DNA of 49,671 nucleotides from an uncultured Ruminococcus sp. (GTDB lineage Bacteria; Bacillota; Clostridia; Oscillospirales; Acutalibacteraceae). Shown here one piece after another: positions 8,572-49,573 of this stretch. Within the stretch, counting starts at the first letter, position 1. Each line of letters opens with the position of its first letter. Below the pieces are notes generated by a model that ran no database searches, had not been told where the DNA came from, and saw nothing but the letters and a program-made list of their open reading frames with translations. The translations under genes and the position numbers were made by a program. Location: contig CACZYF010000015.1 of the NCBI GenBank assembly GCA_902785355.1, positions 1-49,671 on the forward strand, read 5' to 3'.

Positions 8572-8650
8572 CACCCTTATTTCTTAGTTCTTATTTCTTA
8601 GTTCTTAGTTCTTATTTCTTAGTTCTTATTTCTTAGTTCTTAGTTCTTAT
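8572..8650. repeat. Heptamer array TTCTTAG/TTCTTAT
   Basis: About eleven 7-bp units fill the gap between yqeK and rsfS. The array reaches into yqeK: its stop codon and the last few codons (SEEQ) are in phase with the repeat, so the array has either grown into or donated the end of that gene. The rest of the gap shows no promoter. Confidence 0.85.
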
Positions 8651-11721: not shown

Positions 11722-11777
11722 ATCGGGTGCGGGCAGCGCCCGCCCGTAACCATTCACCATTCACTATTCACCATTCT
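11722..11777. repeat. Half element: GC hairpin plus inverted heptamer array
   Basis: GGTGCGGGCAGCGCCCGCCC (hairpin) is followed by ATTCACC-type heptamers (about 11748-11777) that end one base from the smc stop codon. This matches the right half of the elements at 796-1089 and 23534-23779 without their left half. Confidence 0.75.
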
Positions 11778-19432: not shown

Positions 19433-19464
19433 AACTCCTCACTCCTAACTCCTCACTCCTAACT
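19433..19464. repeat. Heptamer array (GTTAGGA/GTGAGGA on the minus strand)
   Basis: About four and a half alternating 7-bp units fill the gap between topA and trmFO and end 3 bp from the topA stop codon. The units match single heptamers in the drifting array at 796-823. Confidence 0.8.
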
Positions 19465-23533: not shown

Positions 23534-23779
23534 AAGGTGAATGGTGAATAGTGAATGGTGAAGAGTGAAGGGTGAAGAGTGAAGAGTGAAGGGAAAGCCT
23601 GACGGCTTTTGGATTTGTATAACAACTGCTTTTCAAACGCCTGCGGCTCTGTATAAAGGGTCGAGTGTGTTGTTTCCCGATCAAACGTTATATAAATCCG
23701 GTGCGGACAGCGTCCGCCCGCCACCATTCACCATTCACTAATCACCATTCACCGTTAACCGTTCTCCATGATCCGTTCC
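23534..23779. repeat. Composite intergenic element B bounded by inverted heptamer arrays
   Basis: Eight 7-bp units (AAGGTGA, ATGGTGA, AGAGTGA types) at 23534-23589 lead into AGGGAAAGCC with the hairpin AAAGCC/GGCTTTT. The core, GGATTTGTATAACAACTGC onward, matches element A with about four in five bases alike by eye, and ends with GGTGCGGACAGCGTCCGCCC. The inverted array of ATTCACC and CGTTCTC units runs to 23779. This fills the 313-bp gap between the rRNA methyltransferase and rplT; no gene or promoter is evident. Confidence 0.85.
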
Positions 23780-32610: not shown

Positions 32611-32706
32611 TCGGTTGAGATTGCCGCGGGGATTCCCTCGCAATGACTCAATTTTATATGGTTGAGATTGCCGCGGGGACTCCCTCGCAATGACTCATCT
32701 TTATAT
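32611..32706. repeat. Tandem pair of REP-like palindromes (copies 3 and 4)
   Basis: Two units of 47 bp each hold GAGATTGCCGCGGGGA and TCCCTCGCAATGACTCA and are joined by TTTATATGG. They lie upstream of the AI-2E-type gene. The two copies differ at only a few bases, implying recent duplication. Confidence 0.8.
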
Positions 32707-32753
32707 GGTTAGTTATGGCTGAAAAACGGGCAATCATACGATTTTCGTACAAA

Positions 32754-33428: not shown

Positions 33429-33452
33429 GAAAGCCCCCTTACGGGAGCTTTC
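33429..33452 (-). terminator. Hairpin at the 3' end of rnpB
   Basis: GAAAGC(T)CCC and GGGGGCTTTC pair on the minus strand around GTAA, directly behind the conserved 3' end of RNase P RNA. The following tract (TCTCTGTTC) is only weakly T-rich. Confidence 0.6.
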
Positions 33453-33831
33453 GGATGAGTAGATCTATAAGCCGGGTTCTGTATTGGGCAGTCATCTATC
33501 TTGGCCGTGCGTTGCCGCGACGGCTCGGTGCCACCTCCACGGGACAGCCGAGCAGGCCGTATGTCCCTCCGCGGTGTTGCTTCGGATAGGGTTTACACAG
33601 CAGTGAGGTCTCCCCCACTCCGGTGAGCTCTTACCTCGCCTTTCCACCCTTACGTCGTCACGGTCTGTGCTCGGTTAAGGAGCATTACGCGACGATTCGC
33701 GGTAATTTTCTGTTGCACTTTCCCTGGGGTCGCCCCCGGCGGCCGTTAGCCGTTATCCTCGCTCTGTGAAGCCCGGACTTTCCTCGGACAGGGGCTTTCG
33801 CCCGTTGACCGCGACTGCCTGACCTACTCAT
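33453..33831 (-). ncRNA. rnpB: RNase P RNA, class A
   Basis: Catalytic RNA of RNase P, which trims tRNA 5' ends. Conserved blocks in order on the minus strand: GAGGAAAGTCCGGGCTTC (P4 5' side and CR-I, about 33772-33789), GGGTGGAAAGGCGAGGTAAG (about 33625-33655), and ACAGAACCCGGCTTATAGAT near the 3' end (about 33463-33482), which pairs with the 5' block to form P4 and carries the GGCTTATAG end. Length of about 380 nt fits. The 5' end is set by a consensus promoter ending about 7 nt upstream; the 3' end by the hairpin. Boundaries are good to a few nucleotides. Confidence 0.95.
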
Positions 33832-36383: not shown

Positions 36384-36432
36384 AGCTTAAAGCTTAAAGG
36401 TCAAAGCTTAATTCTCAAAGCTCAAAGGCCAA
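36384..36432. repeat. Heptamer array AGCTTAA/AGGTCAA/AGCTCAA
   Basis: Seven 7-bp units start 3 bp after the spoIVB stop codon. Units are more diverged than elsewhere, but the period is exact and each ends in AA. Confidence 0.75.
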
Positions 36433-36514
36433 AGCCGATGAAGGCTGTCGGGAAAAGCGACGCGCCGGACATTGCATCCGCATTTTTTCGTCCTAAATCA
36501 CAATCCGCAAAATC

Positions 36515-47569: not shown

Positions 47570-47751
47570 TACTAATCCTTGATAAAAAGATTTAATCAGA
47601 TATTAGTGATATATTTCGGATAGCGCGACGGGAGACGCAGACAGGCTGGCGCCTGTCACTTCCCGAGTACAGCGAACGACGACGACAACAAAGCTATACG
47701 AAATATAGCGCAATAGATGATAAAGGTTTTTATTTAGGATTAGGATTAGTA
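47570..47751. mobile_element. MITE copy 2 (182 bp)
   Basis: The same ends as copy 1 (TACTAATCCTTGATAAAAA ... GGATTAGTA), inverted relative to it. The interior matches copy 1 except for two internal expansions (about 47622-47633 and 47662-47687) and a duplicated GGATTA at the right end. TA dinucleotides flank both ends. Its right end overlaps the 3' end of the TasA-like gene. Confidence 0.85.
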
Positions 47752-48245
47752 TCAGCAATAGAAACGCCCTTAATGTAAAACTTCTTTGATGCAGCTTGAG
47801 CAGCGTCAGAACCATCGGACAATCTGCAATAAATATGCTCCATATATACTTCGTCAGTACCCGAACGACCGGCATCAACGGTAGTCATTGACTCTCCGCT
47901 CTTTGCGCCGTAGTTGCTGGAGTTAGCTGCAATAACGGTCCAGAACTTGATGTCGTTAGTAATAGTACCAGCAGGATCATCATAGGCGATGGACGCAGGA
48001 GTTGCATTGAAGGTTGCATTGTTGTCTGCGTTGTTCAGTTTAGCACTGTGAGACCATTCACCGTCTGTATCGGTTTTTACAACCAGACCGGCAGCAGCGG
48101 TGGTCTTCATGGAGATACCGTGTGCTTCGGCATCAGGGTTAGCAGCGAACCATGCGAATGTTGCGGAACCAAGAGCTACGAGAGCTACGAGGAGCATCGC
48201 AACGGAAGAGAGTAACGCTCTCTTTCTGAATTTAGTGTTTGTCAT
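47730..48245 (-). CDS. TasA/camelysin-like SipW-type secreted protein
   Basis: 171 aa. The long signal peptide (MTNTKFRKRALLSSVAMLL..., cleavage expected after GSATFAWFA about 24-33) is the SipW-dependent type of TasA, the Bacillus biofilm amyloid fibre, and its relatives. The mature part is rich in Ala, Ser, Thr and Asn and beta-prone. AAGGAGG stands 7 nt before the ATG. The last seven codons and the stop (DTNPNPK) are read from the right end of a MITE, so the original C-terminus is lost. No SipW gene is in the window. Confidence 0.75.
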   Translation of the reverse strand: MTNTKFRKRALLSSVAMLLVALVALGSATFAWFAANPDAEAHGISMKTTAAAGLVVKTDTDGEWSHSAKLNNADNNATFNATPASIAYDDPAGTITNDIKFWTVIAANSSNYGAKSGESMTTVDAGRSGTDEVYMEHIYCRLSDGSDAAQAASKKFYIKGVSIADTNPNPK

Positions 48246-48340
48246 GAGAATTCCTCCTTAAATTATTTTTGTCCCAAACACGAGGACAGATTTACTATTT
48301 AATCAAGCGTTTCTGCGCTTGTTTAAACCGAAAATGTTTC

Positions 48341-48840
48341 GGGAGAACGGAGAACAGAGAACGGAGAACGGTGAAGGGAAAATCCTTTGGATTTTTGAAT
48401 ATATATACCGTTTCATCTATTTACCGTTCTTTGAGGTTTTCAGCGTTGCTGTTAACATACGGATCAACGACTTTAATAAAGGCTTTAAATCGTTATACGA
48501 TTCATCAAAGAATCCGGATTGTTCTAAAATAATAAGCCAAAACTCTGTTTCGTTCGCTTCTTTTGCTGCTATTTGAATTTTGTTAATAAAATCTGCTTTA
48601 CTGATTGCGTACTCAGCTTCATGGATATTGGCGCCTATACTCGTACCGCTTCTAAGAATCTGTCTTGCCACGACATACTCGCGCTTAACTTCTGTAAGCC
48701 ATTTATAGTAAGAAATGATCCTCAGCGAAAACTCTATTGAATAGGTTGCCAGTTCACCTTTTATAATCTAAAACCATCAATAATTGAACGAGCGGAGCGA
48801 GAAACATGCACCGTTCTCTGTTCTCCGTTATCCGTTCTCC
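48341..48840. mobile_element. Element C: four-helix-bundle gene bounded by inverted heptamer arrays
   Basis: Five units of GGAGAAC/AGAGAAC/GGTGAAG (48342-48376) open the element and four inverted units of CGTTCTC type (48811-48840) close it. Inside the left array edge, GGGAAAATCC/GGATTTTT forms a hairpin like the GGGAAAGCC hairpin of elements A and B. The interior carries a four-helix-bundle gene. The element sits between two TasA-like genes, 8 bp from the stop of the second. Mobility is inferred, not shown. Confidence 0.55.
48417..48767 (-). CDS. Four-helix-bundle protein (S23/IVS-type, TIGR02436-like), start uncertain
   Basis: Up to about 116 residues. The hallmark is RQILRSGTSIGANIHEAEYA, followed by KADFINKIQIAAKEANETEFWLIIL, as in proteins encoded in 23S rRNA intervening sequences and in small standalone genes; they form pentameric bundles related to DGR Avd proteins. 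The conserved first helix (ATYSIEFSLRIISYYKWLTEVKREYVV) is encoded upstream of the only GTG (48671), but no ATG, GTG or TTG starts it: the frame opens after a TAG with ATT ATA. Either a rare start is used or the start is lost. Confidence 0.7.
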   Translation of the reverse strand: MIKGELATYSIEFSLRIISYYKWLTEVKREYVVARQILRSGTSIGANIHEAEYAISKADFINKIQIAAKEANETEFWLIILEQSGFFDESYNDLKPLLKSLIRMLTATLKTSKNGK

Positions 48841-48848
48841 ATAAAAAA

Positions 48849-49527
48849 CTATTCAAACGAATTTCCGTTTTCATCGGCTCCGCCGAAGAGCATTTGGATG
48901 GTCAGATTTGAATCCTGTACATCGTTGTCACACTCGGGGTCGTTACCCTCTGCCCAGATACGAACCGTGATCTGCTTCGGCTCGAGCTTGTTCAAATGGA
49001 AGAGCCGGGAATCGGCGCCGAAGCTCTGACCTACGTCAAAGGTACTCTGGCCGTTGACCGGGGTGCCGCGGTTGAGCTCCCAAATAGCGGCGGAGCCGCT
49101 GTCCTCGAACGACGTACGAACCGCCCGGATGATATCCGCCTTGGAGCCGGTCTCGGTAGTGGTACATGCGGTGGTAGCGTTAGAGCCCTCAACCTGTACG
49201 GTCTGTCCGGACAGGTGAACATACATATCCGTGGTAGCGATGAACCAGACCTTGAACTCAAGATAGGATGAGGTCTCATTCGCGTTACGGGAGCTGCCGT
49301 TCTGACTTACAAAGGTGATACCGTTGCTGGTAGTAACCGGATCAAGTCGCTGATCGGCGATCCTCGTACCGTTCACCGAGGAAAGATACTGGTTGATCAT
49401 ATCGTTGGTCAGCACCTTCTTCCACTGGGAAACGTCGGTACCGCGGTTCTCGATATCAAGGTACAACTCGTGAGTCCGATGACGAAACCGTTGAAGAAAA
49501 GTTCTATAACGGACACCTCCAAGACTC
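48849..49527 (-). pseudogene. TasA-like protein gene truncated at its 5' end by IS256-type insertion
   Basis: About 226 residues remain. The frame has no native start: its first residues would be read from the IS end. The retained part is typical of the C-terminal domain of TasA-like proteins in Clostridia (SSYLEFKVWFIATTDMYVHL about 110 residues from the break, then PKQITVRIWAEGNDPEC and a final LTIQMLFGG). It lies upstream of and parallel to the other TasA-like gene, so the two probably formed one locus before element C and the IS arrived. The signal peptide must lie beyond the IS. Confidence 0.75.
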
Positions 49528-49573
49528 GATAAGGTATAATAAATTGCGCAAAAACAAAATGGCATAAAAAGCA

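Follow-up and report, generated by a model that had tools for sequence, protein, structure and literature searches.

The window analysed here, a stretch of 49,671 nucleotides from an uncultured Ruminococcus sp., carries at about 48342-48840 a small element that is laid out as an array of about four to five heptamers, a hairpin, an S23 gene, a second hairpin and the inverse of the first array. Together with its counterparts in other genomes, this element suggests that small mobile elements of one family are widespread, distributed over many bacterial phyla and located both in rRNA and between protein genes. With a probability of roughly 0.55, we read the S23 element as a relative of the 23S rRNA intervening sequence (IVS) that resides between genes and is ended by heptamer arrays, probably read by a pentameric S23 ring.

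The left array (48342-48375, plus strand) consists of GGAGAAC, AGAGAAC and GGTGAA units, and the right array (48809-48840, minus strand) is its inverse. TRF reported the former at 48342-48379 (period 7, 5.4 copies, 83% matches) and the latter at 48811-48840. The inverted-arm score of the element was 24.5, whereas arms of identical geometry placed at random 2000 times in the window scored 7.4 on average and at most 12.5. This agrees with an earlier note on this DNA, which had described GGAGAAC-type heptamers on the left with their inverse on the right. The note had also proposed a hairpin starting GGGAAA just inside the left array, and such a hairpin, GGGAAAATCC-TTT-GGATTTT on the plus strand, indeed begins at 48376 and extends to 48398; it was recognized by reading the sequence and is paired in the minus-strand fold. 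To this we add a second, right-hand hairpin at about 48785-48805 (minus strand), which reads GTTTCTCGC...GCTCG on the gene strand; hairpins of this type are also present at elements in two sister genomes (e.g., L301 and L309). As judged from the arm score and the RNA fold, the ends of the element are complementary and capable of forming a long stem.

Between the hairpins lies a frame of 116 residues (48417-48767, minus strand), which matched the S23/four-helix-bundle profiles TIGR02436 with 93.3 bits (cut-off 24) and PF05635, "23S rRNA-intervening sequence protein", with 80.3 bits (cut-off 33.8), substantiating the single gene for an S23-like four-helix-bundle protein that had been suggested. 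This copy has probably decayed and is no longer translated, because no ATG, GTG or TTG precedes an internal GTG in the frame; in two sister species, G496 and G510, the orthologues at this site are intact and begin with methionine where a start is expected. Other frames of at least 80 codons overlap the element (85 and 87 codons on the plus strand, and 81 codons from 48784) and were catalogued as open frames only. No transposase, as would characterize a classical insertion sequence, was seen in this 500-bp element, of whose frames the profile scan covered that of S23. The element lies between two open frames and not inside an rRNA gene, and the Rfam scan of the window returned RNase P RNA as its sole match. 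Because it lies outside rRNA, the element is a relative, and not a member, of the 23S rRNA IVS. The genome contains a second S23 gene, at G000:C27:34026-34349, which is flanked by inverted 7-bp arrays of the GAGGAAT type.

Two further elements in the window, A and B, had been described in the earlier note as repeating this order of parts while lacking the gene. This description holds for both; unforeseen was that element A is compound, with two array-plus-hairpin modules stacked at its left end (815-949). On the plus strand, element A comprises an outer GGTGAAT-type array (815-865, also found by TRF), a first GGGAAAGCCTGACGGCTTT hairpin (867-885, hairpin pattern), a second array of the AAGAAAT type that belongs to the stacked module and has no inverse partner seen on the right (889-926), and a second hairpin with a gene-less core that ends in GGTGCGGACAACGTCCGCC (931-1054, pattern scan). 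It is closed by a minus-strand ATTCACC array (1056-1090, TRF). A further array of CCGTTCT units lies at 1181-1218 (TRF, period 7). Element B has a left array (23536-23589, plus strand, also found by TRF), a GGGAAA hairpin, a core and a GTCCGCC hairpin (23591-23718, plus strand), a stretch that is absent from the site in sister species G496, and a right array (23722-23769, minus strand, TRF). The GGGAAA hairpins of the gene-less elements have a layout identical to that of the left hairpin of the window S23 element.

These elements belong to a larger population in the same genome. Three consecutive GRNGAAN units gave 50 overlapping matches at about 20 places, compared with 1 for the reversed pattern, and the GGGAAAGCCTGACGGCTTT hairpin, with up to 3 mismatches, occurred 36 times at 26 places, compared with 0 for its reversed pattern. 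A hairpin-pair scan of 34 sources from this genome (33 stretches and the window) yielded 29 hairpins, 19 with a partner hairpin further in, representing 14 distinct elements, and 10 without. When the AAGAAAT arrays in the stacked modules are disregarded, left and right array agreed in their type of word in 13 of these elements: GGWGAAY in 11 and GAGGAAT/GAGTTAG in 2 (L115 and L116), with L043 mixed. The cores of L115 and L116 match the family of the others despite their different word, so core and word can separate. Stacked modules were found in 6 of the 14, in addition to further incomplete ones (L112 and L114). Heptamer ends thus also bound more than 12 gene-less copies in this genome, which supports the proposed family of a gene-bearing member and short gene-less members sharing one type of end. 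Among gene-less elements of sister genomes, some had left and right arms that were only partly similar (L298, L309 and L313).

Inverted hairpin doublets in many intergenic copies are also the hallmark of REPINs, described as short, gene-less, intergenic pairs of inverted hairpins present in many copies (PMC3116915). We therefore weighed a miniature DNA transposon of this kind, in which a Y1/RAYT-type transposase would mobilize the hairpin ends in single-stranded form and S23 would be either a passenger or a helper. The paired inverted hairpin ends, the many gene-less copies and the stacked end modules speak for it, as does a RAYT-like Y1 protein encoded in this genome (G000:C53, L132; 67.6 bits to REP_Tyr_transpos, below the cut-off of 80, and 24.6 bits to Y1_Tnp, cut-off 23). 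However, the likeness to REPINs and BIMEs holds for the gene-less members only: the ends here are heptamer arrays with several hairpin stem types, and the encoded protein is S23 and not a transposase. The link between hairpin and RAYT gene is likewise missing, as the 1.1 kb around the RAYT-like gene contained neither heptamer arrays nor the GGGAAA hairpin and its hairpins are of another kind (GTAGGGCGGG...). We thus rejected this gene as the owner of the heptamer ends and consider the REPIN-like explanation unlikely. REP-like hairpins starting GTAGGG (GTAGGGCGGG... and GTAGGGGCGACC...) were observed at L132 and L043 and apparently form a separate repeat family.

Sister species were informative on the gain and loss of the element. 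We searched 60 genomes of the genus with positions 47730-49565; 45 matched, and we read the seven loci with the longest matches; weaker matches to both flanks occur in other genomes. The S23 gene and both arms were present at the same site in G496, G510 and G172, and G498 had an array, a hairpin and a truncated S23. In G161, G502 and G166 both flanks were found with 25-46 bases between them and no S23 element, answering the earlier suggestion to look for empty sites; G502 and G166 retain small palindromes there, which may be relics of the element. The joint gain and loss of gene and arrays that the earlier note had made a touchstone is therefore supported in part over these seven species: gene and arms occur together in G496, G510 and G172 and are both absent from G161, whereas the palindromes of G502 and G166 and the truncated copy of G498 deviate from a strict pattern.

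The arm words at this site differ between species: the window element has GGAGAAC, the elements of G496 and G510 have AGATAAC in either arm, and that of G172 has GTGAAGA in either arm. The window S23 scored highest with the same-site copies (374, 394 and 327; the next best pooled locus, its own locus L002 excluded, reached 265), and on these sequence scores we favour one old insertion whose arms changed jointly, the alternative being replacement by related elements. Comparison of the G496 and G510 copies gave a dN/dS of 0.08 at a dS of 1.27, which is near saturation. In G172, a second S23 frame lies on the opposite strand about 1.6 kb from the orthologous-site copy (L271). The site of element B was examined in the same way (54 of 60 genomes matched; eight loci read). 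Its flanks abut in G496 and are separated by 26-50 bases in G172, G515 and G518, partly array relics (G172 and G518); other sequence lies there in G161 (763 bases), G504 (266 bases) and G498 (154 bases, of which an array and a hairpin come first), and the G502 locus (L239) aligned on one side only. At sister sites without the S23 element, the flanks were too diverged to fix the exact join when we checked for a target site duplication. Recent S23 duplicates were rejected as a means of defining the borders, as paralogues are either diverged or part of long duplicated blocks and their words are mostly different.

To extend the analysis beyond this genus, we took 400 bases of flank on either side of each S23 gene and compared the upstream flank with the reverse complement of the downstream one. 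TIGR02436 was present in 71 of 150 genomes of the family and in 53 of 299 of a phylum sample. A first set comprised 61 loci, 59 of them usable (2 were dropped for short flanks), and 600 mismatched-locus pairs served as control (99% point, 14.5). Overall, 37 of the 59 loci exceeded 14.5, and 32 of these 37 had a best period of 7 or 14. One mismatched pair reached 38, which counts against the association. Direct, non-inverted comparison of the flanks in this set was also raised (mean 14.2, 95% point 40.9, maximum 73.5; the inverted mean was 17.8), because several flanks hold further repeats. Similarly, among 80 named loci from many phyla, the best 80 of 567 relatives (78 usable), 44 exceeded the 99% point of 16.0 obtained from 2000 mismatched pairs, with period 7 in 19, period 14 in 20 and period 8 in 5; 23 of the 34 loci below this point still had a best period of 7 or 14. 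None of 141 shifted controls from the same loci exceeded 16.0; one mismatched pair reached 27, again counting against the association.

Pooling these sets with further paralogues gave 163 loci, 161 of them usable (L128 and L190 were dropped); these are not independent, as a number of them share a genome or stem from closely related ones. At a cut-off of 14.5, 115 of the 161 had arms, with period 7 in 58, period 14 in 42, period 8 in 7 and another period in 8, so that 100 of the 115 had a period of 7 or 14. The matched arm had a median length of 31 nt, or 4.4 units (quartiles 3.9-5.1), and was rich in purines at 77 of 100 loci. The pitch is not strictly seven nucleotides everywhere, because seven loci show period 8 (L135, L156, L166, L185, L188, L197 and L208); L109 has period 11. 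The proposal that inverted 7-bp arrays flank TIGR02436-like genes beyond chance is thus upheld against both the mismatched-locus and the shifted controls, and the arm comparison supports heptamer arrays, instead of classical terminal repeats, as the ends. Four-helix-bundle genes elsewhere that lack such arrays had been named as evidence to the contrary, and here the association stands for the most part: most loci have arms, but 46 of the 161 do not, including a group with other upstream repeats. Clusters of small hairpins with mirrored tags such as GTGAAG...CTTCAC lie upstream of the S23 genes at L060, L064, L066, L068-L077 and L080, which, except for L066, have no arms at the cut-off.

Five of the S23 copies lie inside 23S rRNA genes according to Rfam (L095, L103, L104, L111 and L214), and the ends of all five are 7-nt periodic, with a best period of 7 or 14 (14 in L214). 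Reports of S23 proteins in rRNA intervening sequences date back to the 1990s, yet the proteins have no known function, and the Coxiella IVS is described as having tandem GACAGAT heptamers ahead of its S23 frame and an end stem of 28 bp (PMC4990558). The window element shares with these the PF05635 protein and complementary ends, and the rRNA-borne copies share the 7-nt period in turn. It differs in lying between protein genes, in a word that varies between species and within one genome, and in its many gene-less relatives. Furthermore, the repeats are treated in the portion of that work covered here as a local feature of one IVS (PMC4990558).

We next considered whether the arms share a word. 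A single heptamer fitted to 100 arms was TYAGNNN, read on the gene strand of the 5' arm, with a score of 1.70 compared with a maximum of 1.27 in 30 permuted controls. In a held-out test, a model built from 51 named loci scored 1.26 on the 49 others, and the controls scored 0.63 with permuted columns (maximum 0.98 of 500) and 0.59 in antisense. YAG occurred in the unit at 33 of the 51 named loci (permuted expectation 15.0) and at 25 of the 49 others (13.5). The main words of this genome fit TYAG poorly, which counts against the preferred reading.

Within and between genomes, the words behave as local dialects. The arrays of this genome use GGTGAAT/GGAGAAC and some GAGGAAT, those of G496 are mostly AGATAAC-like among the array places listed, and the same-site S23 element carries the local word on both arms. 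Words mostly differ between S23 paralogues of one genome (the two of G080 are similar) and even between S23 proteins about 70-75% identical (e.g., L059, L065 and L227); hence, the arms turn over fast, and often together. Arm similarity followed protein similarity weakly overall (Mantel rho 0.19, with 0 of 999 permutations as high; 100 loci), and agreement became clear only once protein identity passed about 60% (the top two bins, of 72 and 12 pairs), which indicates that the arm word drifts faster than the protein. Fast joint turnover would be expected if the arms are read as sequence or are copied from one another.

S23 is a plausible reader, to judge from the strand-specific TYAGNNN word and the species dialects. 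The Xanthomonas S23 protein is a homopentameric ring (PMC4990558). The S23 relatives of known structure, 2rld and 2gsc, have five chains each. TRAP (trp RNA-binding attenuation protein), a protein ring with a fold unlike that of S23, reads evenly spaced NAG triplets at a spacing of about 5 nt. By analogy, each subunit of the S23 homopentamer would read one heptamer, so that an array would serve as a sequence code; the analogy concerns only the way of working, since the spacing is 7 nt in the S23 arrays and the S23 reading is putative. Reading of the arrays, which on our account is probably performed by a pentameric S23 ring, would mark the ends of the element for copying, and gene-less members would be copied in trans. 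This role of the ring is suggested by the number of units in an array, by the strand specificity of the word and by the existence of dialects. Counting against it are the lack of a usual start codon in the window S23, the candidate reader of the local dialect, together with the 46 loci that have no arms at the cut-off and the 8 loci with arms of some other period.

A broader version of this proposal is possible, although we put it forward tentatively: a bacteria-wide class with dialect-coded ends. In such a class, TYAGNNN arrays would be wound with one unit per S23 subunit, would identify the ends in trans and would evolve in concert with the protein; the rRNA IVSs would be members that landed in rRNA, and the gene-less crowds would be copied by any S23 able to read their dialect. 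The strand-specific heptamer code at S23 borders is a concrete candidate ligand for proteins that have long been without a function. If the proposal is true, rRNA IVSs, orphan four-helix-bundle genes and scattered heptamer arrays would constitute one class of element, which could account for part of the short-repeat content of many genomes.

S23 proteins and rRNA IVSs are known; the general inverted-array association, the word TYAGNNN, the many gene-less members and the dialects of different species appear to be new with respect to open-access PMC. There, titles and the beginnings of abstracts yielded no report of a general association of S23 or helix-bundle genes with heptamer or inverted arrays, the nearest being the Coxiella remark. 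The TAACTGA repeats of Beggiatoaceae, cyanobacteria and Bacteroidetes are likewise intergenic heptamer arrays, and TAACTGA is the complement of TCAGTTA, which fits TYAGNNN. They differ in being described as direct repeats, with one inverted case, and a term search of the main text of that paper found neither "S23" nor "helix bundle" (PMC4679880).

The position of the elements relative to host genes bears on how they may spread. Using the longest open frames as genes, without annotation, we found an upstream frame of at least 100 codons ending within 250 bases at 91 of 107 loci with arms, and 79 of these 91 frames run in the direction of S23 (p = 3e-13). Downstream frames were co-directional with S23 at 78 of 95 loci, and both neighbours ran in the S23 direction at 66 of the 83 loci having both. 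In 63 of 79 cases, no more than 15 nt separate the upstream stop codon from the start of the arm. Likewise, in 40 array clusters from this and two sister genomes, a stop codon lay within 15 nt of the array at 30 of 39 element-facing gene ends; however, of the 35 clusters in which both neighbours were called, 12 had them in divergent or convergent orientation. PF05635-type genes have been noted inside cas loci (PMC3936711), which agrees with insertion between co-directional genes. Such an element would ride in host transcripts. At two loci in genomes of the family (L058 and L067), S23 elements adjoin a tRNA-Leu, part of whose 5' end is repeated beyond the element; ARAGORN recognized one complete tRNA-Leu at each.

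The predominantly sense orientation next to genes, together with the copies in rRNA, could also be accommodated by an element acting at the RNA level, whose arms are complementary since the transcript must fold into a long stem, with S23 incidental. The RNA folds are good (z-scores of -7.8 for element B and -4.0 for the window S23 element), and rRNA intervening sequences are cut by RNase III (PMC4990558). Yet arm mismatches showed no excess of G-U-preserving changes (108 versus 130 not preserving, 107 loci, p = 0.17), and on these grounds we rejected RNA pairing as the force keeping the arms complementary; moreover, pairing alone accounts for neither the 7-nt period nor the strand-specific word. 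We regard this explanation as rather improbable.

A retroelement, in which S23 would act like Avd with a reverse transcriptase (RT) supplied in trans, is suggested by the homology of Avd and PF05635 proteins in sequence and structure comparison (PMC10053308) and by one RT gene in this genome. That gene (PF00078, C3:123382), the only one found, lies on another contig than the window element and appears group II-maturase-like from its sequence. Avd is a pentamer. In diversity-generating retroelements, Avd works with a linked RT, whereas S23 showed no association with RT here: among 150 genomes, 71 had S23, 48 had RT and 25 had both (Fisher p = 0.48), and no RT was detected in 46 of the 71 S23-positive genomes, some of which are drafts that may miss it. 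The link to a reverse-transcribing enzyme raised in the earlier note was thus not supported, RT was rejected as the S23 partner on this lack of association, and we consider the retroelement explanation very unlikely. With RT showing no association and the RAYT-like gene being without these ends, we assign no enzyme to the movement of the element. Finally, slippage arrays arising independently and by chance on both sides of small genes would give the variation of units seen inside single arrays, but are hardly credible and refuted as a full explanation by the mirror arrangement, well above mismatched-locus and shifted controls, by the sister sites without the element and by the shared hairpins (36 versus 0 reversed).

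Several other repeats and features were observed in the window. TRF detected further period-7 arrays at 8576-8649 (CTTAGTT, 10.6 copies), 11749-11776 (ACCATTC), 19433-19464 (AACTCCT) and 36384-36435 (AGCTCAA), as well as a 47-bp tandem repeat of 2.1 copies at 32613-32710. The RNase P RNA is of class A and complete (33452-33830, minus strand, Rfam). The 38-base stretch at 49528-49565 recurs identically at G000:C11:77295-77332 and in similar form elsewhere in the genus; a dispersed repeat may thus lie at the end of the window.
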